Below, in pieces: positions 16,500-59,945 of a stretch of 64,000 nucleotides of DNA. Position 1 is the stretch's first letter. Each line of letters starts with the position of its first letter. The stretch is from Thunnus maccoyii (lineage: Eukaryota > Chordata > Actinopteri > Scombriformes > Scombridae): positions 1,187,001-1,251,000 of the forward strand of contig NC_056545.1 in the NCBI RefSeq assembly GCF_910596095.1, in the 5' to 3' direction. The notes under the pieces are model-generated. The model searched no databases, was not told where the DNA came from, and was given only the letters and a program-made list of their open reading frames with translations. The translations under genes and the position numbers were made by a program.

Positions 16500-16643
16500 T
16501 TGACTCCTCCCCAGTGTGACGTCATCATGACATAACAAATCAAAAGATAAAATGGGAGTGGCTCTTTATCAAAGTTCATAATAGTTCAGCACTGTGCTGT
16601 TGCTGGATAACAGAGAAGAGAAAAGAGACAGTGTCACCTGACC
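16500..16643 (+). promoter_or_regulatory. Putative promoter / 5' UTR of gene U, right copy
   Basis: Contains a perfect CRE-like TGACGTCA at about 16517, GGGAGTGGCT at about 16554, and CAGCACTGTGCTGT followed by GATAACAGAG just before the accATGG start. The same blocks precede the left copy, where the CRE-like site reads TGATGTCA. The transcription start is not determined. Confidence 0.35.
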
Positions 16644-21895: not shown

Positions 21896-22194
21896 TGGAA
21901 CTCCCTTAAAGAAATACCTTTTTAATCAAACTTAATCAGTTCTTACATGTTTATCTTTGCTATTTATGTCATGTTTCCTGTTGGGTTTTTTGGTATTGTT
22001 TAAAAATCTTCATTCAACCATTGTATGTTAATCATGTTCTATAAAGTCTTTTGCATCTTTACTTTGAAATCTGCTGTGCAAATAAAATAATACATCATAC
22101 CTCCGTTTATGGTCCTGTCGATCAGTGTCAAAAAATTCATATTAAATCGATTTTGATTCAATATATATATAAAACATTTACTCAAGTACTGTAC

Positions 22195-22416
22195 TTGTAG
22201 TGATTAACTACATCAAGCTCATAATACTTATGTACTTTTACTGCAATACTTTAACTACATCAAGCTCATAATACTTATGTACTTTTACTGCAATACTTTA
22301 ACTACATCAAGCTCATAATACTTATGTACTTTTACTGCAATACTTTAACTACATCAAGCTCATAATACTTATGTACTTTTACTGCAATACTTTAACTACA
22401 TCAAGCTCATAATACT
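22195..22416 (-). repeat. 47-bp minisatellite upstream of TIM gene 1
   Basis: Five occurrences of CATCAAGCTCATAATACTT at 47-bp spacing, with near-identical units. It is the reverse complement of the minisatellite at 11812-12002. The same position upstream of the other TIM genes has 2, 3 and 1 copies. Confidence 0.9.
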
Positions 22417-23438
22417 TGTCTGTTGTGTTTACATGAGTGTTTGTTTACGTGAGAATGTCACCGACATTTTAACCAACATGATGCCAAAATTAACAGCATG
22501 GCTTCTTGTGTCTGAGGCAAATAATCCGTCTGCCTGTTTCAGCAGGTTGTTTCTAGAAGCTTTCAGCATTTTGATAAATTCAGTCTTCACTAACCACTGC
22601 TAAGGGAACACCCAGTACATAGACGGCACGTTAGGGAACATGAAACAGGTGATTTACTGCTTGTTTTTAATGTCATTTAGTAAACAGTGATAAGAAAACA
22701 TCATTAAACTCTGAGGGAACATTACTAATGACGGCCTTGCATCAAACGCAAAAGCAAAAAACTCAGTCCGAGCTGTCTTAAGTCAGTCTTTTTCTCGTCT
22801 TGATGTTCCAATAACGTCAAACATGTTTAATATTATCCTAAGTCTTCAGTTTTGGCTCATGCAATTAGTGAAGTTCAATGACATGAACATTGTCAATGAC
22901 TAGGCATGCAGCAAACAGGAAGCAGCAAACTGGGTGTTACTGTAACAGCTGAAAAAACTAAACTCAAATACCATCACACACACATGATGGACAGTGAGTT
23001 AACAATGTAATTAGCTGGTGTTTAATTGGCATGTATCTGATCCACCAACCAGCATGTATTTTAAACACACAAGAGTCCAAACTAAAGCTGGAGGACGAGA
23101 ATTCAGTTTTCTCATTTAATTTAATTTAATTTATTTTAATTTCCATTTCATCTTGTTTTATCGATTTTATTCTTCCTGTTTGTATGTTTTGTGTTTATCT
23201 CTTGTTTTATGTCTTTTTGTAAAGCAGTTTGAGCTGCTGCAGGTTATTTTTTGTGACCTTGTGGGGCTGAAAACTCAGCATGTGTTTCGGCAGACGACAC
23301 GTTCATTACTTCTGAGGTCTGATGTGTGACTTCCTCTCACATTCTGACCTCAAGGTGAAGTGTTCACATTTCTGGACAGTTGAGTCTCAAATTAACTGAT
23401 AAAACAGGAAATGTTCATGTGTCAGTTTGATGTTGATC

Positions 23439-30510: not shown

Positions 30511-32401
30511 TTTAGTCATGAAGGGGAAACTTTGTATTTACAATATTTAGTATTTGATCAGGATTCTGTGTTTGCTAATTTTGGTATGAAATAATAATAA
30601 TTTATATTTTTAAAATAATGCTTTACAGCTCAGTTGGTTGCCATAGCACCACCAACAGGAAGATTGTTCCCACAGTTTAGTCACTTTAGAAGAGAGTAGA
30701 GCGTTCTGCCGAGTTTAGTGCTTTTTCATTCATGTTGAGGCCATTTGTTTGTCAAAAAATGCAAGCGTGAAAAAAAAAGATTAAAAAAAGTCTTTAAGTT
30801 ACTCATTATTTGTAGAATGCAGATGTCTTGGCAAGTGAATTAACATTTAAATATCATGCAGATGGAAAGGTGACTTGAGGATGCTGAAACATACTTTTAT
30901 AACAAGCCACATAGATTAACATGAAGCTGTTTTGTGGAACTCCCTTAAAGAAATACCTTTTAAATCAAACTTAATCAGCTCTTACATGTTTATCTTTGCT
31001 TTTATGTCATGTTTCCTGTTTGGTTTTTTGGTATTGTTTAAAAATCTTCATTCAACCATTGTATGTTAATCATGTTCTGTAAAGTCTTTTGCATCTTTAC
31101 TTTGAAATCTGCTGTGCAAATAAAATAATACATCATACCTCCGTTTATGGTCCTGAAAAAAAATTTTCATTCAACTGAATGATTAAATAAACTTGAACAC
31201 AGAGGCGGAAAGTACTCAAATACATGTACCTAAGTGCTGAGCTTAAGTACAATTTTTAGGTACTTTACTTGAGTATTTCCATTTGATGCTACTTTATGCT
31301 TTACTCCACTACATTTATTTAGTTAGTCATCAGATCTCAATTTTATGAGTAAAACAGATAATGATTTAAATCACTTTGTAGAGATCTTTTTCCTCTTTGA
31401 CATTCAAAGGTCTTTTTCTGTCGATCAGTGTCAAAAAATTCACATTAAATCGATTTTGATTCAATATATATATAAAACATTTACTCAAGTACTGTACTTG
31501 TAGTGATTAACTACATCAAGCTCATAATACTTATGTACTTTTACTGCAATACTTTAACTACATCAAGCTCATAATACTTGCCTGTTGTGTTTATATGCGT
31601 GTCTGTTTACGTGAGAATGTCACCGACATTTTAACCAACATGACGCCAAAATTAACAGCATGGCTTCTTGTGTCTGAGGCAAATAATCTGTCTGCCTGTT
31701 TCAGCAGGTTGTTTCTAGAAGCTTTCAGCATTTTGATAAGTCCAGTTTTCACTAACCACCGCTAAGGAAACACCCAGTACATAGACGGCACGTTAGGGAA
31801 CATGAAACAGGTGATTTACTGCTTGTTTTTAATGTCATTTAGTAAACAGTGATAAGAAAACATCATTAAACTCTGAGGGAACATTACTAATGACGGCCTT
31901 GCATCAAACGCAAAAGCAAAAAACTCAGTCCGAGCTGTCTTAAGTCAGTCTTTTTCTCGTCTTGATGTTCCAATAACGTCAAACATGTTTAATATTATCC
32001 TAAGTCTTTAGTTTTGGCTCATGCAATTAGTGAAGTTCAATGACATGAACATTGTCAATGACTAGGCATGTTTAATTTAATTTAATTTATTTTAATTTGC
32101 GATTCCATTTCATCTTGTTTTATCGATTTTATTCTTCCTGTTTGTTTGTTTTGTGTTTATCTTTTGTTTTGATGCCTTTTTGTAAAGCAGTTTGAGCTGC
32201 TGCAGGTCATTTTTTGTGACCTTGTGGGGCTGAAAACTCAGAATGTGTTTCAGCAGACGACACGTTCAGTACTTCTGAGGTCTGATGTGTGACTTCCTCT
32301 CACATTCTGACCTCAGTGTGAAGTGTTCACATTTCTGTACACTTTAGTCTCAAACTGACTGATAAAACAGGAAATGTTCATGTGTCAGTTTGATGTTGAT
32401 C

Positions 32402-34872
32402 ATGAAGACTGTGAGCAGGTTGCTGATCGTTCTCCTCACAGGTACTCTGCTCTTTAACTTTCTATAACTCTGACTTCACACTGACTTTATGTAATATGAG
32501 ACAGTTAGAGACAGTTTCTGTGGTGTGTTTATATGAAACAACAGATTTTAGCTGCTTACAGACCTGAAAGTGTTGAAGTGTCTCTTTGTGTCTTCAGTCA
32601 TTGAACGCAGCAGCAGCATGAAGGTTGTTGGTCGAGCAGGTGAGGACGTCACTCTGCCGTGTAAATATGACTTCAAGTATAACGGAGTGTTGTCAGCTTG
32701 CTGGGGTCGAGGATCAATACCAAGGTTTGGCTGCAACAACCAGATCATCTCCACAGACGGACGTAAAGTGATAGAATCAACCAGAGTTTCCAGCAGGTAT
32801 CAGTTACTGGGACGACTGGAGGATGGAGATGTTTCTCTGACGATCCTGAAAACCACAGAAGAAGATGCTGGACTGTACGGATGCTTGGTGGACATACCTG
32901 GGTGGTTCAATGATGAAAAACATCACATCGATCTGATCATTGAGAAAGGTAAGAAATGTTTTTTATAAAAGAATAAAGTTTGTGCAGGAAGTTACTTGAA
33001 GGACGGAGATTCATAAACTAATGTTCAGTGTTCAGAGGTTTGATGTTATCAATTAATCTACCAATTACTTTCCTGATTCATTGATTTTTGTTCAGTTCAT
33101 AAAATGTCAGTAAATTGTGAAAAATGTCCAACACAAGTTCCTGGTTTTGTTCGACCAACAGTCCAAACCCCAAAGATCTTTATTATCATAGAGGAGCAGA
33201 AAACTAGAAAATCTTCATGTTTATGAAGCTGGAATCAGTGAATTTTTTGTTGGAAATTTTCTGAACTGATGATTCAACTGTTACAATTTTATGTTCTTAA
33301 ACCTAAATGACCAAATGTTTGTCACGTCCTCCAGAAGAAGTTTTTCTGATCTGCCGCCTCTTTCGTTAAATGTCTGATGAAGTTTAGGAAACGAAAATTA
33401 TTCTATTGATGTTAGAGAGAGACGAGCTGGCTGAAACGTGTCAGAATGATGAAGATTTTACACCTCAGAGGTTTTAAAATGAAAGTCGTAACTTCTGCTT
33501 TTACTTCTGAACATGAACTCGCTGTCTGACATGTGAACAAACTGCTGCTGCTGTTTCTCTGCAGACGACACATTCAGTACTTCTGACGTTTGATGTGTGA
33601 CTGATAAAACAGGAAGGGTTCATGTAGGGACGTGACTGGGATGGATGCAAAACCAAAACCAAAGTCAACTTTTAGTGACAGAAAATAATCAATTCATTTA
33701 TCATTTAACTCATTTTTTCTAGCAAACATGCAGAACATTCATCATTTCCAGCTTCTTAATTGTGAAGATTTGCTGCTTTTCTTTGTCGTTTGTGACAGTA
33801 AACCCTCCAGCCTCGACCACAGCAGCCACCACAACAGAGAGAGGACGTCATGTCACACTGGTTGAAGAGGTGAGTTGAAGTCAATAGTTAAAAAATAAGT
33901 TTATAAGACAAATTTCATTTTAGGTTTTGATCCAGTGACTCATCTGATTCCTGCAGTGCATCAAACAGCAGTTCATCTCTGAAACAAACAAACAAACAGC
34001 AGTCCAAACACGAAAAATTAGTTGTTGTTGAGTCCAGCTTTAAATCCAGAAACTTCAGAATGGTTCCAAATGTTGAAGTTTTCTCCAGAGTCTCTTCTCT
34101 CAGAGTGAATTGTCTCCAGATGTTGTGATGAAGTCATTTCATCCAGTTGTTTAAAAGCAGAGAAACAGATTTTCACTCCTTTAACATCAGTTATTTGACT
34201 GTAAACGTATCAACTAGAAGAGTTTTCTGTCCTCACTTTTAAACCAAAAGTAGAGAAAACATGTGAGTTCCCGCTCAAACTTTACATCTATCAGAGAACT
34301 CGTCCACAAGCCGTCTGATGTTTAAAACATTATTTTAATGTGAAACAGTTTCCAGGTGTGTTTTAGAGACGTCTGTCAGAAAACAGGTGAATCTATTTTC
34401 AGCTGACAAACAACCAAACTGCTTCACTGGCAACATCTGGTGAGAAGGACACACTGCTAGAGATTAAACTAGTCCAATAACACAAAACCAGTCATCAACT
34501 AGTTTCATAATTGATTTATTGTTTGAGTCTTTTTGAAGTAAAAATGTCAAAATTTTCTGTCTCCAGATTCTCAGATATGAAAATTTGCTGCTTGTGTCTA
34601 ATTTTCTCACAGTAAACTGAATCTGACAAAACAAATGTTTATATTTTGATCTTTGATAAGATGTTTGTTGTTTAGAGTTTAGTTCACCTGTGTGTGATAA
34701 TAATAACAAATATAATTCTAACTTAACAAAAAACATCATTTGTTTGTTTGTTGACAGTTGTGGAGCGCACCTGCTCAGCAGGTAAACAATCTGCCCATCT
34801 TCATCGGAAACACAGTGAAACTCTTCATTGTCTTCCTCATATCTGCACTGCTGCTGATAGCTGCTTACAGTC

Positions 34873-37358: not shown

Positions 37359-39531
37359 GGCAGTAAATCCTGACATATATTTGGACTGTTTTTCTCCAGT
37401 AGACTTGTCTGAACTAACTTCAATGATTTGTTCAGCAAACCTGTCTCTTAGATCCCATCCCAACTAGGCTGCTTAAGGAAGCCTTACCCTTAGTGAGCAC
37501 TTCTTTACTAGATATGATTAATTTGTCTTTAGTAACAGGCTATGTACCACAGTCCTTTAAAGTAGCTGTAATTAAACCTCTTCTTAAGAAGCCTACTATT
37601 GATCCAGGTGTTTTAGCCAATTATAGACCTATATCTAACCTTCCATTTCTATCCAAGATCTTTGAGAAAGCAGTCTCTAATCAGTTATGTGACTTTCTAC
37701 ATAACAATAGTTTATTTGAGGATTTTCAGTCAGGATTTAGAGGCATCATAGCATAGAGACAGCACTGGTGAAAGTCACAAATGACCTCCTAACTGCATCG
37801 GACAAAGGATTTGTCTCTATACTTGTCCTGTTAGATCTTAGTGCTGCATTCGATACAATTGACCATCAAATCCTTTTGCAGAGACTAGAACATTTAATTG
37901 GCATTAAAGGAACTGCATTAAGCTGGTTTAAGTCCTATTTATCAGACCGATTTCAGTTTGTACATGTTAATGATGAATCCTCCATGAAGGCAAAAGTTAG
38001 ACACGGAGTTCCACAAGGTTCTGTACTTGGACCAATACTATTCACCTTGTATATGCTTCCTTTAGGTAATATTATTAGGAAACACTCCATAAATTTTCAT
38101 TGTTACGCAGATGACACCCAATTATATTTATCAGTGAAGCCTGATGAACCCAATCAGTTAAACAAACTCCAAACATGCCTTAACGACATAAAGACCTGGA
38201 TGACCTGCAATTTTCTACTACTAAATTCAGATAAAACTGAAGTTATTGCGTTTGGCCCTAAACACCTTAGAAACACATTATCTAATGATAAAGCTGCTCT
38301 GGATGGCATTACCCTGGCCTCCAGCACCACCGTAAGGAATCTGGGAGTTATCTTTGATCAGGATATGTCCTTTAACTCCCACATAAATCAAATCTCAAGG
38401 ACTGCCTTTTTTCACTTACGTAATATCACAAAAATCAGGCACATCCTGTCCCTAAAAGATGCAGAAAAACTAGTTCACGCATTTGTTACTTCTAGGCTGG
38501 ATTATTGCAGTTCCTTATTATCAGGCTGCCCTAACAAGTCTCTAAAGACTCTCCAGCTGGTCCAGAATGCAGCTGCACGTGTTCTGACTAAAACTAGAAA
38601 AAGAGACCACATTTCTCCCATTTTAGCTTCACTACATTGGCTTCCTGTAAAATTGAGAATAGAATTTAAAATCCTCCTAACGTACAAAGCCCTTAATGGT
38701 CAGGCACCATCATATCTTGAAGAGCTCATAATACCGTATTATCCCACCAGAACACTGCGCTCCCAGTATGCAGGCTTACTGGTGGTTCCTACAGTCTTTA
38801 AAAGTAGAATGGGAGGCAGAGCCTTCAGCTATCAGGCTCCTCTTCTATGGAACCATCTACCGGATTCAGTCCGGGGTGCAGACACCCTCTCTATGTTTAA
38901 GAGTAGGTTTAAAACTTTCCTTTTTGATAAAGCTTATAGTTAGGGCCGACCAGGCTCGCCTTGGATCAGCCCTTAGTTATGCTGCTATAGGCCTAGACTG
39001 CTGGGGGACTTCCCATGATGTACTGAGCTCCTCTCTCCTCCTCCTCCTCTCCATCTGTATGCATTCATGTAACATCAATGCATGTCACTAACTTTGCTTC
39101 TTCCCCGGAGTTTTTTTGTGCTTTCTCATCTCACAGGAACCCCTGGGTTCTGGGCCGAGTCTTCGCGGTCCTTCACAATCCTGATGGAATCCTTCCCTGG
39201 CTATTGCTGCTTGTGCTTGTTGTTGTTGTTGTGATTGTTTTTCTTCTGTCCCCCCTCCCCCTTTCCCTCTCTCTTTCTCTCTCTCTTTCTCTCTCTCAAC
39301 CCAACCGGTCAAAGCAGATGGCCGCCCACCAAGAGCCGGGGTCTGCTTGAGGTTTCTACCCGTTAAAGGGGAGTTTTTCCTTACCGCTGTCGCCAAGTGC
39401 TGCTCATGGGGGAATTGTTGGGTCTCTGTAAATTAAAGAGTACGGTCTTGACCTGCTCTATGTGAAAAGTGCCTTGAGATGACTTCTGTTGTGATATGGC
39501 GCTATATAAATAAAGATTGATTGATTGATTG
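37359..39531 (+). mobile_element. 5'-truncated L2-family LINE, copy 2
   Basis: Near-identical to the element at 28123-30288, at the same place in the next unit. It shares the frameshift between the two halves of the reverse transcriptase and adds its own stop just before it (GCATAG at about 37750). A deletion near 37435 removes several bases present in copy 1. The longest frame is 37768-38943, with the YADDTQLYL motif. The (GATT)n tail is at about 39514-39530. Confidence 0.9.
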
Positions 39532-41036: not shown

Positions 41037-42666
41037 CAGTACAGACCAAAAGTTTGGACACACCTTCTCATTCAATGAGTTTCCTTTCTTTTCATGACTA
41101 TTGACATTGTAGATTCACACTGAAGGCATCAAAACTATGAATTAACACATGTGGAAATATGTACTTAACAAAAAAGTGTAAAACAACTGAAAATACGCCT
41201 TATATTCTAGTTTCTTCAAAGTAGCCACCTTTTGCTCTCATTACTGCTTTGCACACACTCTGCATTCTCTTGATGAGCTTCAAGAGGTAGTCACCTGAAA
41301 TGGTTTTCACTTCACAGGTGTGCCCTGTCAGGTTTAATAAGTGGGATTTCTTGCCTTATAAATGGGGTTGGGACCATCAGTTGTGTTGTGCAGAAGTCAG
41401 GTGGATACACAGCTGATAGTCCTACTGAATAGACTGTTAGAATTTGTATTATGGCAAGAAAAAAGCAGCTAAGTAAAGAAAAACGAGTGGCCATCATTAC
41501 TTTAAGAACTGAAGGTCAGTCAGTCCGAAAAATTGGGAAAACTTTGAAAGTGTCCCCAAGTGCAGTCGCAAAAACCATCAAGCGCTACAAAGAAACTGGC
41601 TCACATGAGGACCGCCCCAGGAAAGGAAGACCAAGAGTCACCTCTGCTGCGGAGGATAAGTTCATCCGAGTCACCAGCCTCAGACATCGCAGGTTAACAG
41701 CAGCTCAGATTAGAGACCAGGTCAATGCCACACAGAGTTCTAGCAGCAGACACATCTCTAGAACAACTGTTAAGAGGAGACTGTGTGAATCAGGCCTTCA
41801 TGGTAGAATAGCTGCTAGGAAACCACTGCTAAGGACAGGCAACAAGCAGAAGAGACTTGTTTGGGCTAAAGAACACAAGGAATGGACATTAAACCAGTGG
41901 AAATCTGTGCTTTGGTCTGATGAGTCCAAATTTGAGATCTTTGGTTCCAACCACCGTGTCTTTGTGCGACGCAGAAAAGGTGAACGGATGGACTCTACAT
42001 GCCTGGTTCCCACCGTGAAGCATGGAGGAGGAGGTGTGATGGTGTGGGGGTGCTTTGCTGGTGACACTGTTGGGGATTTATTCCAAATTGAAGGCATACT
42101 GAACCAGCATGGCTAACACAGCATCTTGCAGCGGCATGCTATTCCATCCGGTTTGTGTTTAGTTGGACCATCATTTATTTTTCAACAGGACAATGACCCC
42201 AAACACACCTTCAGGCTGTGTAAGGGCTATTTGACCAAGAAGGAGAGTGATGGGGTGCTGCGCCAGAAGACCTGGCCTCCACAGTCACCGGACCTGAACC
42301 CAATCGAGATGGTTCGGGGTGAGCTGGACCGCAGAGTGAAGGCAAAAGGGCCAACAAGTGCTAAGCATCTCTGGGAACTCCTTCAAGACTGTTGGAAGAC
42401 CATTTCAGGTGACTACCTCTTGACGCTCATCAAGAGAATGCCAAGAGTGTGCGAAGCAGTAATCAAAGCAAAAGGTGGCTACTTTGAAGAAACTAGAATA
42501 TAAGACATATTTTCAGTTGTTTCACACTTTTTTGTCAAGTATATAATTCCACATGTGTTAATTCATAGTTTTGATGCCTTCAGTGTGAATCTACAATTTT
42601 CATAGTCATGAAAATAAAGAAAACTCTTTGAATGAGAAGGTGTGTCCAAACTTTTGGTCTGTACTG
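41037..42666 (+). mobile_element. Near-complete Tc1/mariner element
   Basis: The element runs from CAGTACAGACCAAAAGTTTG to its reverse complement ending GGTCTGTACTG, flanked by TA on both sides (41035-41036, 42667-42668). Terminal inverted repeats extend well over 100 bp with few differences (ACACCTTCTCATTCAA, TTGATGCCTTCAGTGTGAAT). The same site is empty, as an uninterrupted ATATATATAAAACATT run, at about 22160, 31465 and 48525. The insertion is therefore younger than the tandem duplication. Confidence 0.95.
41451..42503 (+). pseudogene. Tc1 transposase with one in-frame stop
   Basis: A Tc1-family transposase for DNA cut-and-paste at TA sites. The N-terminal helix-turn-helix DNA-binding region reads SVRKIGKTLKVSPSAVAKTI, with the GRPR linker (in RKGRPRVTSA) after it. 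The catalytic acidic blocks are all present: LWSDESKFEIFG (about residue 157), FQQDNDPKHT, and SPDLNPIE. A single TAA at 42114-42116 interrupts the frame. Both halves are otherwise in the same frame and together give the usual length of about 350 codons. The copy is therefore recently dead, or just able to produce a truncated protein lacking the second and third catalytic residues. Confidence 0.92.
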
Positions 42667-43852
42667 TATATAAAACATTTACTCAAGTACTGTACTTGTA
42701 GTGATTAACTACATCAAGCTCATAATACTTATGTACTTTTACTGCAATACTTTAACTACATCAAGCTCATAATACTTATGTACTTTTACTGCAATACTTT
42801 AACTACATCAAGCTCATAATACTTGCCTGTTGTGTTTACATGCGTGTTTGTTTACATGAGAATGTCACCGACATTTTAACCAACATGACGCCAAAATTAA
42901 CAGCATGGCTTCTTGTGTCTGAGGCAAATAATCTGTCTGCCTGTTTCAGCAGGTTGTTTCTAGAAGGTTTCAGCATTTTGATAAATCCAGTTTTCACTAA
43001 CCACCGCTAAGGAAACACCCAGTACATAGACGGCACGTTAGGGAACATGAAACAGGTGATTTACTGCTTGTTTTTAATGTCATTTAGTAAACAGTGATAA
43101 GAAAACATCATTAAACTCTGAGGGAACATTACTAATGACGGCCTTGCATCAAACACAAAAGCAAAAAACTCAGTCCGAGCTGTCTTAAGTCGGTCTTTTT
43201 CTCGTCTTGATGTTCCAATAACGTCAAACATGTTTAATATTATCCTAAGTCTTCAGTTTTGGGTCATGCAATTAGTGAAGTTCAATGACATGAACATTGT
43301 CAATGACTAGGCATGCAGCAAACAGGAAGCAGCAAACTGGGTGTTACTGTAACAGCTGAAAAAACTAAACTCAAATACCATCACACACACATGATGGACA
43401 GTGAGTTAACAATGTAATTAGTTGGTGTTTAATGGGCATGTATCTGATCCACCAACCAGCATGTATTTTAAACACACAAGAGTCCAAACTAAAGCTGGAG
43501 GACGAGAATTCAGTTTTCTCATTTAATTTAATTTAATTTATTTTAATTTGTGGTTCCATTTCATCTTGTTTTATCGATTTTATTCTTCCTGTTTGTTTGT
43601 TTTGTGTTTATCTTTTGTTTTGATGCCTTTTTGTAAAGCAGTTTGAGCTGCTGCAGGTCATTTTTTGTGACCTTGTGGGGCTGAAAACTCAGCATGTGTT
43701 TCAGCAGACTACACGTTCAGTACTTCTGAGGTCTGATGTGTGACTTCCTCCCACATTCTGACCTCAGTGTGAAGTGTTCACATTTCTGGACAGTTGAGTC
43801 TCAAATTAGCTGATAAAACAGGAAATGTTCATGTGTCAGTTTGATGTTGATC

Positions 43853-46800
43853 ATGAAGACTGTGAGCAGGTTGCTGATCGTTCTCCTCACAGGTACTCTG
43901 CTCTTTAACTTTCTATAACTCTGACTTCACACTGACTTTATGTAATATGAGACAGTTAGAGACAGTTTCTGTGGTGTGTTTACATGAAACAACAGATTTT
44001 AGCTGCTTACAGACCTGAAAGTGTTGAAGTTTCTCTCTTTGTGTCTTCAGTCATTGAACGCAGCAGCAGCTGGAGCAGCATGAAGGTTGTTCGTCGAGCA
44101 GGTGAGAACATCACTCTGCCGTGTAAATATGACATCAAGAAACACGGAGCGAGGTCAGTTTGCTGGGGTCGAGGATCAATACCAAGGTTTGGCTGCAACA
44201 ACCAGATCATCTCCACAGACGGACATAAAGTGATAGAATCAACCAGAGTTTCCAGCAGGTATCAGTTACTGGGACGACTGGAGGATGGAGATGTTTCTCT
44301 GACGATCCTGAAAACCACAGAAGAAGATGCTGGACGGTACACATGCAGAGTGCTGATACCTGGGCCGTTCAATAATGAAAAACATCACATTGAGCTGATC
44401 ATTGAGAAAGGTAAGAAATGGTTTTTATAAAAGAATAAAGTTTGTGCAGGAAGTTACTTGAAGGACGGAGATTCATAAACTAATGTTCAGTGTTCAGAGG
44501 TTTGATGTTATCAATTAATCGACCAATTACTTTCTTGATTCATTGATTTTTGTTCAGTTCATAAAAAGTCAGTGAATTGTGAAAAATGTCCAACACAAGT
44601 TCCTGGTTTTGTTCGACCAACAGTCCAAACCCCAAAGATCTTTATTATCATAGAGGAGCAGAAAACTAGAGAATCTTCATGTTTATGAAGCTGGAATCAG
44701 TGAATGTTTTGTTGGAAATCTTCTGAACTGATGATTCAACTGTTACAATTTTATGTTCTTAAACCTAAATGACCAAATGTTTGTCACGTCCTCCAGAAGA
44801 AGTTTTTCTGATCTGCCGCCTCTTTCGTTAAATGTCTGATGAAGTTTAGGAAACGAAAATTATTCTATTGATGTTAGAGAGAGACGAGCTGGCTGAAACG
44901 TGTCAGAATGATGAAGATTTTACACCTCAGAGGTTTTAAAATGAAAGTCGTAACTTCTGAACATGAACTCGCTGTCTGACATGTGAACAAACTGCTGCTG
45001 CTGTTTCTCTGCAGACGACACGTTCAGCACTTCTGAGGTTTGATGTGTGAAGTGTTCACATCTCTGGACAGTTGAGTCTCAAATTAGCTGATAAAACAGG
45101 AAATGTTCACATTTCTGTACACTTTAGTCTCAAACTGACTGATAAAACAGGAAATGTTCATGTGTCAGTTTGATGTTGATCATAAAGACTGTGAGCAGGT
45201 TGCTGATCGTTCTCCTCACAGGTACTCTGCTCTTTAACTTTCTATAACTCTGACTTCACACTGACTTTATGTAATATGAGACAGTTAGAGACAGTTTCTG
45301 TGGTGTGTTTACATGAAACAACAGATTTTAGCTGCTTACAGACCTGAAAGTGTTGAAGTGTCTCTTTGTGTCTTCAGTCATTGAACGCAGCAGCAGCAGC
45401 AGCAGCATGAAGGTTGTTGGTCGAGCAGGTGAGAACATCACTCTGCCGTGTAAATATGACTTCAAGTATTACGGAGTGTTGTCAGCTTGCTGGGGTCGAG
45501 GATCGCTACCACTTTCAGGCTGCAACAACCAGATCATCTCCACAGACGAACATAAAGTGATAGAATCAACCAGAGTTTCCAGCAGGTATCAGTTACTGGG
45601 ACGACTGGAGGATGGAGATGTTTCTCTGACGATCCTGAACACCACAGAAGAAGATGCTGGACTGTACGGATGCTTGGTGGACATACCTGGGTGGTTCAAT
45701 AATGAAAAACATCACATTGATCTGATCATTGAGAAAGGTAAGAAATGTTTTTTATAAAAGAATAAAGTTTGTGCAGGAAGTTACTTGAAGGACGGAGATT
45801 CATAAACTAATGTTCAGTGTTCAGAGGTTTGATGTTATCAGTTAATCTACCAATTACTTTCTTGATTCATAGATTTTTGTTCAGTTCATAAAATGTCAGT
45901 GAATTGTGAAAAATGTCCAACACAAGTTCCTGGTTTTGTTCGACCAACAGTCCAAACCCCAAAGATCTTTATTATCATAGAGGAGCAGAAAACTAGAAAA
46001 TCTTCATGTTTATGAAGCTGGAATCAGTGAATTTTTTGTTGGAAATTTTCTGAACTGATGATTCAACTGTTACAATTTTATGTTCTTAAACCTAAATGAC
46101 CAAATGTTTGTCACGTCCTCCAGAAGAAGTTTTTCTGATCTGCCGCCTCTTTCGTTAAATGTCTGATGAAGTTTAGGAAACGAAATTATTCTATTGATGT
46201 TAGAGAGAGACGAGCTGGCTGAAACGTGTCAGAATGATGAAGATTTTACATCTCAGAGGTTTTAAAACAATAGTCGTAACTTCTGAACATGAACTCGCTG
46301 TCTGACATGTGAACAAACTGCTGCTGCTGTTTCTCTGCAGACGACACGTTCAGCATTTCAGAGGTTTGATGTGTGACTGATAAAACAGGAAGGGTTCATG
46401 TAGGGATGTGACTGGGATGGATGCAAAACCAAAACCAAAGTCAACTTCTCTTTTAGTGACAGAAAATATTTTGTCAATCAATTCATCATTTAACTCATTT
46501 TTTCTAGCAAACATGCAGAATATTCATCATTTCCAGCTTCTTAATTGTGAAGATTTGCTGCTTTTCTTTGTCGTTTGTGACAGTAAACCCTCCAGCCTCG
46601 ACCACAGCAGCCACCACAACAGAGAGAGGACGTCATGTCACACTGGTTGAAGAGGTGAGTTGAAGTCAGTAGTTAAAAAATAAGTTTATAAGACAAGTTT
46701 TATTTTAGGTTTTGATCCAGTGACTCATCTGATTCCTGCAGTGCATCAAACAGCAGTTCATCTCTGAAACAAACAAACAAACAGCAGTCCAAACACGAAA

Positions 46801-47643
46801 AATTAGTTGTCGTTGAGTCCAGCTTTAAATCCAGAGACTTCAGAATGGTTCCAAATGTTGAAGTTTTCTCCAGAGTCTCTTCTCTCAGAGTGAATTGTCT
46901 CCAGATGTTGTGATGAAGTCATTTCATCCAGTTGTTTAAAAGCAGAGAAACTGATTTTCACTCCTTTAACATCAGTTATTTGACTGTAAACGTATCAACC
47001 AGAAGAGTTTTCTGTCCTCACTTTTAATCCAAATGTAGAGAAAATATGTTGGTTCTCTCTCAAACTTAACACCCCATCTGCTATCTGATTTTTAGAACAT
47101 TATTTTAATGTGAAACAGTTTCCAGGTGTGTTTTAGAGACGTCTGTCAGAAAACAGGTGAATCTATTTTCAGCTGACAAACAACCAAACTGCTTCACTGC
47201 CAACATCTGGTGAGAAGGACACACTGCTAGAGATTAAACTAGTCCAATAACACAAAACCAGTCAGCAGTTAGTTTTATAATTGATTTATTGTTTGAGTCT
47301 TTTTGAAGTAAAAATGTCAAAATTTTCTGTCTCCAGATTCTCAGATATGAAAATTTGCTGCTTGTGTCTAATTTTCTCACAGTAAACTGAATCTGACAAA
47401 ACAAATGTTTATATTTTGATCTTTGATAAGATGTTTGTTGTTTAGAGTTTAGTTCATCTGTGTGTGATAATAATAACAAATATAATTCTAACTGAACAAA
47501 AAACATTTGTTTGTTTGTTTGTTGACAGTTGTGGAGCACACCTGCTCAGCAGGTAAACAATCTGCACATCTTCATCGGAAACACAGTGAAACTCTTCATT
47601 GTCTTCCTCATATCTGCACTGCTGCTGATAGCTGCTTACAGTC

Positions 47644-47688
<45 letters not shown>

Positions 47689-47970
47689 CAGGTCCTGTGA
47701 TTCTTCATATAATAGAAATGATTAGAAGATGAATGTAGTTTATTGCATCGAGACACTTTGACTACAGTCGTTCTCCACTTTACTCATTGATTTGTTAACA
47801 TTAAAGACATTAATTAACAGAAATTGCAGCTGTATGCAAACATAAAGAGATCCTCAAGTTTAAATAAACACTGAGTGTAACTACACTCTGATCATTTAAG
47901 AGCTTCAAACTTTAAATATTTTTTATTTTAAAAGGAAGCAAACATGTTCATTATTATATACATGAAGGTC

Positions 47971-48021
<51 letters not shown>

Positions 48022-48560
48022 TTTTCCTTCTGTAACAATGTTGTGAATGTGAATTAATGTCAGTTTATCTGATTACAGTCGTGTCATTAAAGTTTTTTTC
48101 AATCTGACTTTGAGTCACAGAAACACAAAACACAAGAAGCTTCATAAAGCAACAGTCTGTTTATTTACAGCAGCATAAAAACCAGACAACAGTTCATGTT
48201 TCACAGCAGCTCCATGTCACATTATTTTCATCTGTTTACAGAAATAATCTGATTTTCAATCGATCGTCGCCCTCATGAGGCCAAATTACATCATTACATC
48301 ATGAAAACTAAACTAAACTTTTACTTTCATCAACTTTAAGGAAACAAAACTACAATCATTTAAAACTGATCAAAGTTTTGTTTTTATTTCATGTGTCTGC
48401 AGGAGTGTGGAGGACCAATCAAAGCACAGCGACTGACAGGAGGCAGAACCAATTTGACATTCAAAGGTCTTTTTCTGTCGATCAGTGTCAAACAATTCAT
48501 ATTAAATCGATTTTGATTCAATATATATATAAAACATTTACTCAAGTACTGTACTTGTAG
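43853..48560 (+). CDS. TIM-family receptor 3/4: predicted fused gene with two IgV domains
   Basis: Exons: 43853-43892 (signal), 44051-44410 (IgV-a), 45378-45737 (IgV-b), 46584-46654 (stalk), 47529-47640 (transmembrane), 48403-48560 (tail). All junctions are in phase, including IgV-a to IgV-b, for about 366 aa. IgV-a has no stalk, membrane or tail exons of its own. The duplicated signal exon between the two IgV exons (45182-45221) has ATA in place of ATG and, having been a first exon, no acceptor. Skipping it is therefore the simple reading. IgV-a has the ligand loop PGPFNNEK and IgV-b PGWFNNEK, both altered from WFND. IgV-b has a run of serines (ERSSSSSS). The tail loses the DSSV end: after RRQNQF it reads into repeat sequence and ends QVLYL. 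Separate genes or single-domain splice forms are possible; transcripts would decide. Confidence 0.7.
45182..45221 (+). pseudogene. TIM signal-peptide exon with lost start codon
   Basis: Identical in sequence to the signal exons of genes 1-3 and 5 except that the ATG is ATA. The donor (CACAG|GTACTC) remains. It lies about 1.33 kb after the working signal exon of copy 3, showing that a signal-plus-IgV segment was duplicated in tandem. Confidence 0.85.
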
Positions 48561-49611
48561 TGATTAACTACATCAAGCTCATAATACTTGCCTGTTGTGT
48601 TTACCTGAGTGTTTGTTTACATGAGAATGTCACTGACATTTTAGCCAACATGATGCCAAAATTAACAGCATGGCCTCTTGTGTTTGGTCTTTCTGAGGCA
48701 AATAATCCGTCTGCCTGTTTCAGCAGGTTGTTTCTAGAAGCTTTCAGCATTTTGATAAGTCCAGTTTTCACTAACCACCGCTAAGGAAACACCCAGTACA
48801 TAGACGGCACGCTGGGAACATGAAACAGGTGATTTACTGCTTGTTTTTAATGTCATTTAGTAAACAGTGATAAGAAAACATCATTAAACTCTGAGGGAAC
48901 ATTACTAATGACGGCCTTGCATCAAATGCAAAAGCAAAAAACTCAGTCCGAGCTGTCTTAAGTCAGTCTTTTTCTCGTCTTGATGTTCCAATAACGTCAA
49001 ACATGTTTAATATTATCCTAAGTCTTTAGTTTTGGCTCATGCAATTAGTGAAGTTCAATGACATGAACATTGTCAATGACTAGGCATGCAGCAAACAGGA
49101 AGCAGCAAACTGGGTGTTACTGTAACAGCTGAAAAAACTAAACTCAAATACCATCACACACACATGATGGACAGTGAGTTAACAATGTAATTAGTTGGTG
49201 TTTAATGGGCATGTATCTGATCCACCAACCGGCATGTATTTTAAACACACAAGAGTCCAAACTAAAGCTGGAGGACGAGAATTCAGTTTTCTCATTTAAT
49301 TTAATTTAATTTATTTTTATTTGTGATTCCATTTCATCTTGTTTTATCAATTTTATTCTTCCTGTTTGTTTGTTTTGTGTTTATCTCTTGTTTTATGTCT
49401 TTTTGTAAAGTAGTTTGAGCTGCTGTAGGTCATTTTTTAAGTGTAGTGGAGCTGAAGACGCAGAAGAGGAAACATTCAATACTTCTGAGGTCTGATGTGT
49501 GACTCCCACCCACATTCTGACCTCAGTGTGAAGTGTTCACATTTCTGTACAGTTGAGTCTCAAACTGACTGATAAAACAGGAAATGTTCATGTGTCAGTT
49601 TGATGTTGATC

Positions 49612-52082
49612 ATGAAGACTGTGAGCAGGTTGCTGATCGTTCTCCTCACAGGTACTCTGCTCTTTAACTTTCTATAACTCTGACTTCACACTGACTTTAT
49701 GTAATATGAGACAGTTAGAGACAGTTTCTGTGGTGTGTTTACATGAAACAACAGATTTTAGCTGCAAACAGACCTGAAAGTGTTGAAGTGTCTCTTTGTG
49801 TCTTCAGTCATTGAACGCAGCAGCAGCAGCATGAAGGTTGTTGGTCGAGCAGGTGAGAACATCACTCTGCCGTGTAAATGTGACATCAAGAAACACGGAG
49901 CGTTGTCAGTTTGCTGGGGTCGAGGTTCAATACCAAGGTTTGGCTGCAACAACCAGATCATCTCCACAGACGGACATAAAGTGATAGAATCAACCAGAGT
50001 TTCCAGCAGGTATCAGTTACTGGGACGACTGGAGGATGGAGATGTTTCTCTGACGATCCTGAAAACCACAGAAGAAGATGCTGGACGGTACGGATGCTTG
50101 GTGCACATACCTGGGTGGAACAATGATGAAAAACATCACATTGATCTGATCATTGAGAAAGGTAAGAAATGGTTTTTATAAAAGAATAAAGTTTGTGCAG
50201 GAAGTTACTTTAAGGACGGAGATTCATAAACTAATGTTCAGTGTTCAGAGGTTTGATGTTATCAATTAATCTACCAATTACTTTCTTGATTCATTGATTT
50301 TTGTTCAGTTCATAAAATGTCAGTGAATTGTGAAAAATGTCCAACACAAGTTCCTGGTTTTGTTTGACCAACAGTCCAAACCCCAAAGATCTTTATTATC
50401 ATAGAGGAGCAGAAAACTAGAGAATCTTCATGTTTATGAAGCTGGAATCAGTGAATTTTTTGTTGGAAATTTTCTGAACTGATGATTCAACTGTTACAAT
50501 TTTATGTTCTTAAACCTAAATGACTAAATGTTTGTCACGTCCTCCAGAAGAAGTTTTTCTGATCTGCCGCCTCTTTCGTTAAATGTCTGATGAAGTTTAG
50601 GAAACGAAAATTATTCTATTGATGTTAGAGAGAGAAGAGCTGGCTGAAACGTGTCAGAATGATGAAGATTTTACATCTCAGAGGTTTTAGAATAAAAGTC
50701 GCAACTTCTGAACATGAACTCGCTGTCTGACATGTGAACAAACTGCTGCTGCTGTTTCTCTGCAGACGACACATTCAGCACTTCTGACGTTTGATGTGTG
50801 ACTGATAAAACAGGAAGGGTTCATGTAGGGACGTGACTGGGATGGATGCAAAACCAAAACCAAAGTCAACTTTTAGTGACACAAAATATTTTGTCAATCG
50901 ATTCATCATTTAACTAATTTTTTCTAGCAAACATGCAGAACATTCATCATTTCCAGCTTCTTAATTGTGAAGATTTGCTGCTTTTCTTTGTCGTTTGTGA
51001 CAGTAAACCCTCCAGTCTCGACCACAGCAGCCACCACAACACAGAGAGGACGTCATGTCACACTGGTTGAAGAGGTGAGTTGAAGTCAGTAGTTAAAAAA
51101 TAAGTTTATAAGACAAGTTTTATTTTAGGTTTTGATCCAGTGACTCATCTGATTCCTGCAGTGCATCAAACAGCAGTTCATCTCTGAAACAAACAAACAA
51201 ACAGCAGTCCAAACACGAAAAATTAGTTGTCGTTGAGTCCAGCTTTAAATCCAGAGACTTCAGAATGATTCCAAATGTTGAAGTTTTCTCCAGAGTCTCT
51301 TCTCTCAGAGTGAATTGTCTCCAGATGTTGTGATGAAGTCGTTTCATCCAGTTGTTTAAAAGCAGAGAAACAGATTTTCACTCCTTTAACATCAGTTATT
51401 TGACCGTAAACGTATCAATCAGAAGAGTTTTCTGTCCTCACTTTTAAACCAAAAGTAGAGAAAACATGTGAGTTCCCGCTCAAACTTTACATCTATCAGA
51501 GAACTCGTCCACAAGCCGTCTGATGTTTAAAACATTATTTTCTTGTGAAACAGTTTCCAGGTGTGTTTTAGAGACGTCTGTCAGAAAACAGGTGAATCTA
51601 TTTTCAGCTGACAAACAACCAAACTGCTTCACTGCCAACATCTGGTGAGAAGGACACACTGCTAGAGATTAAACTAGTCCAATAACACAAAACCAGTCAT
51701 CAACTAGTTTCATAATTGATTTATTGTTTGAGTCTTTTTGAAGTAAAAATGTCAAAATTTTCTGTCTCCAGATTCTCAGATATGAAAATTTGCTGCTTGT
51801 GTCTAATTTTCTTACAGTAAACTGAATCTGACAAAACAAATGTTTATATTTTGATCTTTGATAAGATGTTTGTTGTTTAGAGTTTAGTTCATCTGTGTGT
51901 GATAATAATAACAAATATAATTCTAACTGAACAAAAAACATTTGTTTGCTTGTTTGTTTGTTGACAGTTGTGGAGCACACCCGCTCAGCAGGTAAACAAT
52001 CTGCACATCTTCATCGGAAACACAGTGAGACTCTTCTTCATCATCATCGTACCTGCACTGCTGCTGATAGCTGCTTACAGTC

Positions 52083-54460: not shown

Positions 54461-55371
54461 AACAAGTTTAAACCCAGCAAACACTGAGACTAGGTATACA
54501 ATGTGCCAATATTTCCAACTCATTGTGGACGATTGCCGATGCCAAGACCAATATTTGCACATATTTTTTTTCCATCTGACTGAGGAGACTATTATGCATG
54601 CAAGCTGGCTTTAACTGTTTGTGTTCAGATTAAACAAACCAGATTCAACTTGTTAATTTGTGAGCTTTAGTGGAGACAGGCTAGCTGTTACCACCTGTTT
54701 ACAGTCTTTATGCTAAGCTAACCTAACCGGCTGCTAGCTGTAGCTTCATATTTAGCATACAGACATGAGAGAGGAATCAATCTGATCAATTAACTCTGCA
54801 AGAAACAGAATGAACTTTGATCATTTATGCTGAAATTATTAAATTTAGATATTTATTTAATTTAAGAGAAAACTTGATTTCTTGACTCCTGGAGTCTAAA
54901 CATATTAGTTTAATTTACCTGTTTATATATTAATTTACTTTTTGTTTGTTTGTTTAGTCTATAGTTTTGCTGCAGTTTAACTTTGTTATTTTATTTGGGT
55001 CTTTGTATAATTATTGATTGATAGGAATGCATTTATTGTTCCAATAAGTACATTTATGATAAGATCAAACAGCGTTCAGTTTTTTGATTTCATTTATTTT
55101 AATTTGGGGTCCATTTCATCTTATTTTATCTGCTATTTTATCCTTTTTAAATTCTGTATGTGATTTGTGTTTATCTCTTGTTTTATGTCTTTTTGTAAAG
55201 CGGTTTGAGCTGCTGCAGGTCATTTTTAAGTGTAGTGGAGCTGAAGACTCAGAAGAGGAAATGTTCAGTACTCTTGGCGTTTGATGTGTGAAGTGTTCCC
55301 ATCTCTGGACAGTTGAGTCTCAAACTGACTGATAAAACAGGAAATGTTCATGTGTCAGTTTGATGTTGATC
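54460..55371 (+). other. Spacer before TIM6
   Basis: AT-rich sequence without a supported gene. The last 300 bases match the upstream sequence of other TIM genes (TTCATCTTATTTTATCTGC, TTGAGCTGCTGCAGGTCATT, AACAGGAAATGTTCATGTG), so they may hold the shared TIM promoter and 5' UTR. The 47-bp minisatellite seen before other copies is absent here. Confidence 0.5.
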
Positions 55372-58300
55372 ATGAAGACTGTGAGCAGGTTGATGATCGT
55401 TCTCCTCACAGGTACTCTGCTCTTTAACTTTCTATAACTCTGACTTCACACTGACTTTATGTAATATGAGACAGTTAGAGACAGTTTCTGTGGTGTGTTT
55501 ATATGAAACAACAGATTTTAGCTGCTAACAGCCCTGAAAGTGTTAAAGTTTCTCTCTTTGTGTCTTCAGTCATTGAACGCAGCAGCAGCAGCATGAAGGT
55601 TGTTGGTCGAGCAGGTGAGAACATCACTCTGCTGTGTAAATATGACATCAGGTATAACGGAGCGAGGTCAGCTTGCTGGGGTCGAGGATCAATACCACTT
55701 TCGGGCTGCAACAACCAGATCATCTTCACAGACGGACGTAAAGTGATAGAATCAACCAGAGTTTCCAGCAGGTATCAGTTACTGGGACGACTGGAGGATG
55801 GAGATGTTTCTCTGACGATCCTGAACACCACAGAAGAAGATGCTGGACGGTACGGATGCAGAGTGGACATATATGGCTGGTTCAATGATCAAAAACATCA
55901 CATTGATCTGATCATTGAGAAAGGTAAGAAATGTTTTTTATAAAAGAATAAAGTTTGTGCAGGAAGTTACTTGAAGGACGGAGATTCATAAACTAATGTT
56001 CAGTGTTCAGAGGTTTGATGTTATCAGTTAATCTACCAATTACTTTCTTGATTCATTGATTTTTGTTAAGTTCATAAAATGTCAGTAAATTGTGAAAAAT
56101 GTCCAACACAAGTTCCTGGTTTTGTTCGACCAACAGTCCAAACCCCAAAGATCTTTATTATCATAGAGGAGCAGAAAACTAGAAAATCTTCATGTTTATG
56201 AAGCTGGAATCAGTGAATTTTTTGTTGGAAATTTTCTGAACTGATGATTCAACTGTTACAATTTTATGTTCTTAAACCTAAATGACCAAATGTTTGTCAC
56301 GTCCTCCAGAAGAAGTTTTTCTGATCTGCCGCCTCTTTCGTTAAATGTCTGATGAAGTTTAGGAAACGAAATTATTCTATTGATGTTAGAGAGAGACGAG
56401 CTGGCTGAAACGTGTCAGAATGATGAAGATTTTACACCTCAGAGGTTTTAAAACAATAGTCGTAACTTCTGCTTTTACTTCTGAACATGAACTCGCTGTC
56501 TGACATGTGAACAAACTGCTGCTGCGGTTTCTCTGCAGACGACACGTTCAGCATTTCAGAGATTTGATGTGTGACTGATAAAACAGGAAGGGTTCATGTA
56601 GGGACGTGACTGGGATGGATGCAAAACCAAAACCAAAATCAACTTCTCTTTTATTGACAGAAAATATTTTGTCAATTGATTCATCATTTAAGCCATTTTT
56701 TCTAGCAAACATGCAGAACATTCATCATTTCCAGCTTCTTAATTGTGAAGATTTCCTGCTTTTCTTTGTCGTTTGTGACAGTAAACTGAATATTTTGTGG
56801 TTCTGAACTGTTGGTCAGAAAAAAACGAGACATTTGAAGACGTCTGCTTGGACTTTAAGTTGTGACAGACATTTACTGACATTCTCTGTCAAAATTGGAA
56901 ACCTCTTCTCCTCATCTGCTCCCATCACCTGCGGAGTCCCTCAAGGCTCCATTTTAGGGCCCATCCTATTCACCTTATACATGCTCCTTCTTGGCTCCAT
57001 CTTCAATAAGCACAATATCTCCTATCATTGCTACGCAGATGATACACAGTTATACCTCCCATTAGAACCTGGTGATGACAATGATAACGCAGTTAGGTCC
57101 CTTCTTGACTGCGTCCTGGACATACAAAATTGGATGGCACAAAACTATCTTCAGTTAAATGCTAGTAAGACTGAAGTGGTTTTATTTGGTCCGACTCCAG
57201 TGGGAGTATAGCTAATCTCTTAGGGCCCCTGGCCCCTTACCTTCATTCTCATGCCAGAAATCTCTGTGTTATTTTTGATTCGGCTCTAAAATTTGATAAA
57301 CAAATTAATTCTGTTGTCAAAGGTTGTTATTTCCAGCTACGAAACATTGCCAAATTGAAACCGCTCCTCTCATTCAATGACTTGAAGACTGTCACAACCG
57401 CTCTGATTTCCTCCCATCTGGACTACTGCGATGCCCTTTATTTGAGTGTTAGCCAGTCTTCCCTGTCCCGCTCACAACTAGTGCAGAACGCTGCTGCTCG
57501 GCTAATATCTGGCACAAGGAAGAGAGACAGCATCACACCTATATTGGCCTCCCTGCATTGGTTACCAGTCAAGTATAAGACTGAGTTTAAGGTTCTTTTA
57601 TTTGTTTTTAAGGCTCTACATGGCATGGCGCCCCAGTACATCTCAGAGCTCATCTGCCCCCTTCACAACACCAGATCTCTTAGATCCTCAGGGGTCCGTT
57701 TCACAAAGCAGGTTTAGTGAAAACTCAGAGTTTGTTAACCCTGAAATGAGGGAAACTCTGAGTTTTCCATTTCAAAAAGGGAGGTAACTCAAACCAGAGA
57801 AAGAGGGATAACTCTAGCCTGTTTCAGAGAGAGGGGTAACTTAAGCTCTCGGTCAGTTACCGTAGCAACAGACTCTATGAACCTAACCTGGTCGGGACCA
57901 GGTTTTTCTCAATGAACCTCGAGTTTCTCTCAGTCTCCGCCCTCTTTCAGAGCCACACACTCCATTTGATTTCCTCATTCATTCAGTCAGCAGGCGAGTT
58001 TTGGCGTAGCCTAGTTCTGCCGTCTGTCATTTAAAAAAATCATTAAAACAATCAGTGTCAGTATATTAGAAGTCCATTAGGCACAGTAACATTTTTCACT
58101 AACATGGCATGTCCTTTTGATAACGATCCCATGGATGAAGGTGCAGCATTACTGCGCAGAGAATTAAATATTCGTTGAGAGATGGTTATCAGACCGCGGC
58201 ATAGATGTTCTAGCATTTTCAGACAATTATCTTTTTGAGCGGTACCGTTTCACGTCACAGTCCATCATCTACATACACAACCGAATCCGTCCTTACATTT

Positions 58301-59945
58301 GCAACATTACCAATCGTAGTCATGCTCTCACATCCCAGCAGATATTGTGTGTTGCGCTGCGTTTCTTTGCAAACGGAAGTTTTTTGTACAATGTCGTAGC
58401 CAGCCACTGGCCTTCCTATAGTCTGGCTTAGGGCCAGCTCCTCTGCCTCCGTTAGAGGTGGCGGTGCTGGACCACCACCCGTTTTACGGACATCTGCCTT
58501 CTTTCTGTTGGCTGAGTAGAAGTCTGTGTTAGTTTAAATAGGCTTAATTATTTAAAAGAACATGATGTAGATGAGAAGACATTTATGTGTGTGAAACCAG
58601 CATTATGTTGGGGATAAAACAACTGCACAGTCAAACAGCCACTTAATATTTACTTTACAATGTAAAAATGATCAAAATGAGGTTCCCCCATGAGATCATG
58701 CCGAGGTCTCACCTGTTTGAACAATGTTTTTATATTTTATCCTAAACTGCTGCCAAGTGCGCTTCTCCCTCGCGGGATTGGATCTAAATGAAATAAATTA
58801 ATAGGCGACCAATCAAGCAGTTTTCCTCTGTAATATTATTGTGATTGCAAAGGACCACATTTAAACTTAGGCATTGACCCGAGCAGCGATGTTCTCCCAC
58901 GCCGTCTCCCTCTCTTTTGCAGCTGCAGCGGTGTTGCACTTCTTTTTGAAAACATGTTCAAACTCGCCGTATTATCGCATTAAGATTTCTAGTTCTAGTG
59001 GGGTGAAAAACGCCGCCCTCCTCTTCCCCGTTGCTATGGTGACTCGTTGAATCGGGGCTCCATTGATGCTGGCTTTTTATAGTTGTGGTGCACGCGCTTA
59101 ACTCCAGGTGAAACTACTCCGAGTTGAATAAACTGACTCAAATCATCTGTTCTGGAACCGGAAACTCAGAGTTTCCTATCTCAGAGTAGATCAACTCAGA
59201 GTTCAGGATTAGACTCGGAGTTTGTTGAACCTGCTTTGTGAAACGGACCCCTGGTCAACTGTTGCTGAGGGGTGACCGTGCATTTGCTGTAGCTGCCCCA
59301 AAACTTTGGAACAGCTGACATCTTGGATTTAAGTGTTCCCCTTCCCGAGACACTTTTAAGGCCAAACTAAAGACTCACTTGTTCACTCGGGCCTTTGACT
59401 GTCGTTAAAACCCAGTGTTCTACTATTATTTGTTTTCTGTTTGTTCTTGTTTCCTGTTTGCTGTTACCCTGTCGTGTTGTTTTAATTTATTCCTGATATC
59501 TTATTGTTCAGCACTTTGGTCAACTGTGGTTGTTTTTAAATGTGCTTTATGAATAAATATGATTTGATTTGACATTTTATAAACCAGACAGAAAATACTA
59601 AACAAGATAATGAAAACTATGTTTAGCTCCAGCCTCAACCACAGCAGCCACCACAACAGAGAGAGGAAGTGATGTCACCCCGTGGAGAGGAAGTGATGTC
59701 ACAGTCGTATGTGAAACCACAGAGCCCACAGTGACACTGGTTCAGGAGGTGAGTTGAAGTCAGAATTTAAAAGAAATCAGTTAATGAGACAAGTTTCATT
59801 TTCATCATTTGTTTGTTTGTTTGTTGACAGTTGTGGAGCGCACCTGTTCAGCAGGTAAACAATCTGCACATCTTCATCGGAAACACAGTGAGACTCTTCA
59901 TCATCATCCTCATACCTGCACTGCTGCTGATAGCTGCTTACAGTC

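Follow-up and report, generated by a model that had tools for sequence, protein, structure and literature searches.

Could two neighbouring genes of a receptor cluster be read as one, and would such a gene make a receptor with two immunoglobulin variable (IgV) domains? The locus that raises this question lies on contig C13 of Thunnus maccoyii (genome 782 Mb, 54 contigs), in a stretch of 64,000 bases (C13:1187001-1251000, A/C/G/T only) that is called the window here and whose coordinates are used for all positions given without a contig name. It contains a tandem TIM-like cluster with six fronts, each made of a signal exon and an IgV exon, against five rears, each consisting of stalk, transmembrane and tail exons. 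This count of rears is based on blastn and the IgV count on blastn together with tblastn; with the IgV of copy 4 (IgV-b) as the query, tblastn recovered six IgVs in the window, the next match being no better than E 4.7. Copy 3 has no rear and directly precedes copy 4, and the reading somewhat favoured here is that the two form a single gene, fused from two neighbours and predicted to make a two-IgV receptor.

Exon anatomy of genes 3 and 4

An original prediction made from this DNA had described copy 3 as a signal exon and an IgV exon (IgV-a) without stalk, membrane or tail, able to splice in frame to the IgV exon of copy 4, and both points hold. The 762 bases behind copy 3 (44411-45172) contain no remnant of a stalk, transmembrane or tail exon, with matches of 8-10 bases only. 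Both IgV exons are of phase 1-1, and when exons were joined at the located splice sites, as in all gene models presented here, the signal and IgV exons of copy 3 followed by the IgV, stalk, transmembrane and tail exons of gene 4 gave one open frame of 369 amino acids. The reading frame of this fused model runs without stops or frameshifts through both IgVs, the stalk and the transmembrane part, and among the six copies the IgV exons differ in length by multiples of three only.

All six signal exons start with ATG TTG ATC AT(G/A) AAG, and five of them carry two in-frame ATGs nine bases apart. In copy 4, only the second ATG has changed, to ATA, a real difference that is unique to this copy among the six; the first ATG, at 45173, is intact and reads MLIIKTVSRLLIVLLT. 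The earlier view that copy 4 has no start codon is therefore ruled out, as the in-frame ATG nine bases upstream is present in all six copies, copy 4 included. The retained ATG has a T at -3, which is a weak context, and the lost one had an A at the same position, which is a better one; initiation at copy 4 may thus be weakened rather than lost. Additionally, an out-of-frame ATG is located 13 nucleotides upstream of the first ATG in the six copies.

The other end of gene 4 is altered as well. Its last exon follows those of the other genes for 51 bases, up to 48453, and then continues in sequence that is spacer elsewhere in the window (31396-31503, 22115-22200), so that the C-terminus, QNQSEERDSSV in genes 1, 2 and 5, reads QNQ in gene 4 and is then extended by 35 residues encoded in spacer. 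Within 500 nucleotides of the tail-exon start there are two AATAAA signals in genes 1, 2 and 5 and one in gene 6; from the stop of gene 4 to 49000 there is no AATAAA and a single ATTAAA, at 48883, and a further ATTAAA was seen by eye at 48501, inside the extended frame. Copy 4 had been taken to possess everything except a start; with the usual C-terminus and poly(A) signals gone, it is ruled out as a complete gene. The RDSSV end of genes 1, 2 and 5, which is missing from the fusion gene, resembles what we take to be a PDZ-binding end, and the tails of these three genes contain no tyrosine. The coordinates of the features are collected in Table 1.

Table 1. Fronts of the TIM-like cluster and features of genes 3 and 4 (window coordinates)
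Feature	Position	Strand	Remarks
Front, copy 1	23430-23988		
Front, copy 2	32393-32948		
Front, copy 3	43844-44410		
Front, copy 4	45173-45737		
Front, copy 5	49603-50161		
Front, copy 6	55363-55923		
Copy 3 signal exon	43844..43892	+	ATG 43844 and in-frame ATG 43853; MLIMKTVSRLLIVLLT; donor CAG/GTACTC; one base over, phase 1
Copy 3 IgV-a exon	44051..44410	+	360 nucleotides, phase 1-1; FG loop GPFNN; Pfam V-set 9e-12
Intronic AATAAA	44434..44439	+	24 nucleotides past IgV-a exon end; soluble form with the C-terminus EKGKKWFL predicted on donor read-through
49-base segment, likely gene 3/gene 4 recombination junction	45002..45050	+	matches intron 2 and promoter region
Possible fusion-made composite exon	45015..45221	+	cryptic acceptor 45015 and copy 4 signal-exon donor; in-frame stop
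Copy 4 signal exon	45173..45221	+	ATG TTG ATC ATA AAG; start codon retained at 45173
Copy 4 IgV-b exon	45378..45737	+	360 nucleotides, phase 1-1; FG loop GWFNN; Pfam V-set 1.5e-10
Gene 4 stalk exon	46584..46654	+	VNPPASTTAATTTERGRHVTLVEE; short, threonine-rich
Gene 4 transmembrane exon	47529..47640	+	blastn and gene model
Gene 4 last exon	48403..48560	+	48403-48453 common to other genes, then spacer-derived frame to TAG 48558-48560

Predicted transcripts and competing outcomes

Transcripts initiated at copy 3 would by default join IgV-a to IgV-b, because the signal exon of copy 4 is a first exon and has no acceptor of its own except a cryptic one at 45015. The IgV splice sites are nearly identical in the six copies, with a donor of 11.0 bits and acceptors of 9.4-10.4 bits on a scale that serves as a rough guide only, and the signal-exon donor is weak (4.3 bits). 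Since the IgV sites score well and no rear exon stands between the two IgVs, the two-IgV product is the predicted default of in-frame splicing, given a transcription start at copy 3. It would be a membrane receptor, presumably exposed at the cell surface, with its two IgV domains linked by the short VIERSSSSSS. A splice that skips the IgV of copy 4 is also open (249 amino acids), and transcripts initiated at copy 4, should its promoter be used, would be translated from the ATG at 45173 into an ordinary receptor with one IgV.

Several observations speak for caution about the fused product. The open frame taken by itself is weak evidence, as in simulations 16 random changes left 45% of the exons open. 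With its in-frame ATG retained, copy 4 may still act as a separate gene with one IgV, and in the six copies an AATAAA follows the end of the IgV exon by 24 nucleotides, with an in-frame stop before it. The cryptic acceptors at 45015 (9.8 bits) and 45222 (10.4 bits) compare with 9.4 bits for IgV-b, and together with the intronic AATAAA they could divert copy 3 transcripts to soluble or truncated products. The kept ATG and the AATAAA would suit a locus with two independent products and no fusion protein, copy 4 making a one-IgV receptor and copy 3 a secreted single-IgV decoy ending in EKGKKWFL, as would the promoter homology of about 170 bp, in which the GATAAAACAGGAA element is doubled, that copy 4 retains. 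This outcome is considered fairly unlikely: the same AATAAA occurs in genes that have rears, where its conservation may merely reflect near-identical introns, the IgV donor that would have to be read through scores high (11 bits), and copy 4 combines a weak ATG context with a distal upstream region that has been replaced by intron sequence.

The broken last exon may also mark a decaying gene. The locus would then be a dying fusion, a pseudogene or a source of mostly unproductive RNA, with an aberrant tail, no normal poly(A) site and a composite exon (45015-45221) that, formed through the 45015 acceptor and the copy 4 signal-exon donor, brings an in-frame stop. The read-through into spacer, the two ATTAAA in place of AATAAA, the weakened start of copy 4, the cryptic acceptors and the replacement of the metal-site Asp in both IgVs (see below) are consistent with decay; the frames of both IgVs, the stalk and the transmembrane part, however, are free of stops and frameshifts, and the IgV exon lengths differ by multiples of three only. 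Furthermore, copies 3 and 5 differ by 17.8 nonsynonymous against 2.2 synonymous changes, which appears more skewed than simple decay predicts. Decay is regarded as improbable, and a fused gene with a predicted two-IgV product is somewhat preferred.

Origin of the two-IgV locus

Partial duplication had been put forward as the origin of the locus, and it now appears the less likely one. By nucleotide identity, the nearest relative of IgV-a is copy 5 (93.4%) and that of IgV-b is copy 2 (95.6%), with 91.1% between IgV-a and IgV-b, and block identities give the same nearest copies. A clade of copies 3 and 4 is rejected by the IgV exons (p 0.0039) and by the whole front block (p 0.018), in which copies 3 and 5 group together with a support of 92/98. 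Partial duplication is thus disfavoured by the IgV exons and the front block, and the introns alone do not exclude it. Some of the data even lean towards it: the intron tree, which comprises five copies, copy 1 with its rearranged intron 2 being left out, does not reject the clade of copies 3 and 4 (p 0.107) and has copy 4 as the row nearest to copy 3, and the nearest copy shifts along the block, copy 4 being nearest or tied-nearest to copy 3 in four of 12 sliding windows, which is a sign of gene conversion or mosaic ancestry. Duplication in place with later exon divergence or gene conversion is a possible course of events.

Deletion between two neighbouring genes is the likely origin, although it is not proven. 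The junction is a segment of 49 bases that matches both intron 2 and the promoter region, and in the intact genes intron 2 contains a shortened promoter-like block ahead of the stalk exon. Relatives of TIM intron 2 on contig C4 (29.636 and 29.666 Mb, minus strand) have a longer promoter-like block. What intron 2 contains looks like the relic of an old promoter, able to recombine with a real one, and in the proposed order of events the relic in intron 2 of gene 3 would have recombined with the promoter of gene 4, removing the stalk, membrane and tail exons of gene 3 and leaving its signal and IgV exons in front of the signal, IgV, stalk, transmembrane and tail exons of gene 4. If expressed, the gene would illustrate how exchange between adjacent members of a young receptor cluster can produce a bivalent receptor in a single event.

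The same junction could be produced by an assembly in which the rear of gene 3 and the upstream region of gene 4 had been collapsed out of a near-identical tandem array, given that the repeats are about 90-97% identical and the junction falls within the shared 49-base segment. Such an artefact is very improbable, as the assembly is in few long pieces, the window is free of ambiguous letters, and over 1.2-1.4 kb the divergence between copies 3 and 4 is about 6-7%, more than the collapse of one allele would leave.

Relatives of TIM intron 2 and the tail exon were located on the minus strand of C4 at 29635456-29636103, 29649563-29650342 and 29665264-29666392, with a recognisable copy of the tail exon. 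In the 50 kb of C4 around them, tblastn gave no convincing TIM IgV, the best match having an E of 0.004 over 25 amino acids on the other strand. These sequences are possibly relics of an older cluster.

IgV diversification, ligand site and known TIM receptors

The IgV exons of the cluster are DIVERSIFYING. Counted from the M of SMKVV, with the preceding serine repeat excluded, 53 of 330 exon sites vary among the six copies against 7 of 156 in intron 1 (Fisher p 0.00018), and 46 of 330 against 15 of 499 in intron 2 among five copies (p 6e-9), copy 1 being excluded from intron 2 comparisons; overall, the variability of the IgV exons is about fourfold that of the introns (window 23635-55923). The amino acid is changed in 32 of the 35 variable codons (110 codons in total). 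The nonsynonymous rate exceeds the synonymous rate in each of the 15 pairs (not independent comparisons), although barely so between copies 2 and 4 (ratio 1.04). A codon model of the six copies gave a ratio (omega) of 2.60 with a log-likelihood of -845.21, against a best value of -848.93 at omega 1, twice the difference being about 7.4, for one assumed tree, with gene conversion ignored and with kappa under omega 1 tried at six values. The changes are clustered, the longest invariant run being 28 residues (p 0.0004 under random placement), and 22 of the 32 variable residues lie in the stretches 17-27, 32-37 and 86-100 from the same M, a grouping made post hoc.

By alignment to TIM structures, these stretches are taken as the BC, CC' and F-FG parts, and the phosphatidylserine pocket of mammalian TIMs is built from the CC' and FG loops (PMC9611583 and PMC6914781). 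Many of the IgV changes fall in these loops. At the amino-acid level the fish TIM-like IgV exons change faster than the introns change at all, a broader signal that points to a diversifying receptor cluster. The usual description of TIMs is that of receptors recognising a single conserved lipid, and in that light a diversified phosphatidylserine pocket would be a testable oddity. The diversifying cluster is at least as interesting as the fusion itself.

The domains are related to TIM IgVs. Among solved structures, IgV-b matches best TIM-1 (2or8, 5e-30) and TIM-4 (3bi9, 2.4e-26), the 15 best-scoring of 20 distinct PDB sequences (E up to 0.001) being TIM-1, -2, -3 or -4, and both domains match Pfam V-set. 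In the six copies the cysteine of the CC' loop and the first cysteine of YCC are replaced, leaving four of the six TIM cysteines, and copies 1 and 5 have one extra cysteine elsewhere in the IgV. The WFND of the FG loop is present in copies 1, 2 and 6 and reads WNND in copy 5, PFNN in IgV-a and WFNN in IgV-b. Because neither the six cysteines nor the WFND site is complete in the fused pair, the name TIM-like is used. The genome holds at least ten TIM IgVs (E up to 0.001), a lower bound that comprises the six in the window, one at C13:0.925 Mb, two on contig C8 and one in a split gene at C13:1.168 Mb; eight have ND and only IgV-a and IgV-b have NN. The third TIM disulfide is missing, both partners together, in nine of these ten IgVs, and the split gene at C13:1.168 Mb retains it. 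Behind the IgVs, the stalk has about 24 residues and is rich in threonine, and the transmembrane and tail exons follow in frame, with a hydrophobic stretch, recognised by eye, consistent with a single pass; in gene 4 the end of the tail is spacer-encoded.

In human TIM-1, WFND is the metal-dependent phosphatidylserine site, and N114D and D115A were reported to abolish flavivirus infection and D115G to reduce the entry of pseudotyped virus (PMC9611583); Asp to Asn itself is absent from the mutations cited there for this site. Because only IgV-a and IgV-b have NN for the metal-binding ND, weakened calcium-dependent phosphatidylserine binding is to be expected in both fused IgVs, perhaps with another ligand instead. 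A bivalent receptor in which both IgVs have left calcium-dependent phosphatidylserine binding for new ligands, perhaps those of pathogens, with two specificities in one chain and in a cluster whose ligand-binding loops would be diversifying under selection, is an unlikely, tentative extension of this expectation. An AlphaFold2 model of IgV-b from six near-identical rows reached a mean pLDDT (predicted local distance difference test) of 57 and was not used.

The two-IgV architecture, which the original prediction did not know from described TIM proteins, has a precedent in chicken, so a novel architecture is ruled out. In Hu et al. (2016, PMC4913284), the isoforms TIM4L0, TIM4L1 and TIM4L2 are documented by cloned cDNA, reverse transcription PCR (RT-PCR) and blots of transfected cells, in which a product of molecular weight 100,000 was found. 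Exon 5 encodes their second IgV, and the linker is contributed by exons 3 and 4 together with part of exon 5; isoforms without the second IgV also exist, and RT-PCR differed between chicken lines. Fc fusions of the two-IgV ectodomain were retained in the endoplasmic reticulum, and the two IgVs differ in only 8 amino acids, the authors speaking of two phosphatidylserine sites. As in chicken TIM4L, the fish locus would be one gene whose two similar IgV exons may be joined by splicing in a single membrane protein, isoforms with one IgV being possible as well. The fish IgVs, however, differ at 16% of residues (84% identity) and would be joined directly through VIERSSSSSS with no multi-exon linker. 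Unlike the chicken gene, the fish gene also has a promoter-like stretch and a signal exon between the IgVs, NN for ND in both, and a broken last exon, and it is known here from genomic sequence alone. No fish TIM with two IgVs was present among the open-access matches listed, although one may have been published elsewhere. The anatomy is real and interpretable, and the two-IgV product stays predicted; its expression would add a further two-IgV TIM to that of chicken, probably of independent origin.

Similarly to mammalian TIM-1 and TIM-4 (HAVCR1 and TIMD4), the cluster genes have a TIM-type IgV sequence and the order signal, IgV, stalk, transmembrane and tail; the mammalian proteins have one IgV only, with six cysteines, whereas the fish domains have four and the stalk is short. 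None of the six fish copies has the counterpart of the human C52-C104 pair (pairing as in PMC9611583), and the tyrosine-free tails of genes 1, 2 and 5 are a further difference from the mammalian proteins. The TIM-like genes at C8:14.177 and 14.187 Mb, C13:0.925 Mb and C13:1.168 Mb share the TIM IgV sequence with the cluster, and all of them keep FND, unlike the fused IgVs. Like the cluster copies, the C8 genes and the C13:0.925 gene are without the third cysteine pair, whereas the C13:1.168 gene keeps six cysteines and has its IgV split over two exons. About 11 kb separates the two C8 IgVs (14176747 and 14187466), and upstream of the C13:925501 IgV 9,500 bases read N.

Other features of the window include the stalk region of gene 6 (within 56807-59680), which is unlike that of the other genes and has an unrelated acceptor side. 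Between the IgV and stalk exons of gene 6, reverse-transcriptase-like frames were recognised by eye at 56807-57714, the frame at 57175-57714 having no Pfam match. The spacers between TIM copies contain near-identical reverse-transcriptase frames, seen by eye, at 28513-29706 and 37741-38940, the first matching Pfam RVT_1, as well as a Tc1-like transposase frame at 41433-42113 (Pfam HTH_Tnp_Tc3_2). Two frames of 184 and 176 amino acids, at 2290-2841 (minus strand) and 16611-17138 (plus strand), are alike by eye and have no Pfam match. An exon-like frame at 9474-9800 (minus strand) matches Pfam Frag1/DRAM/Sfk1 (1.6e-16) and belongs to an ordinary neighbouring gene.

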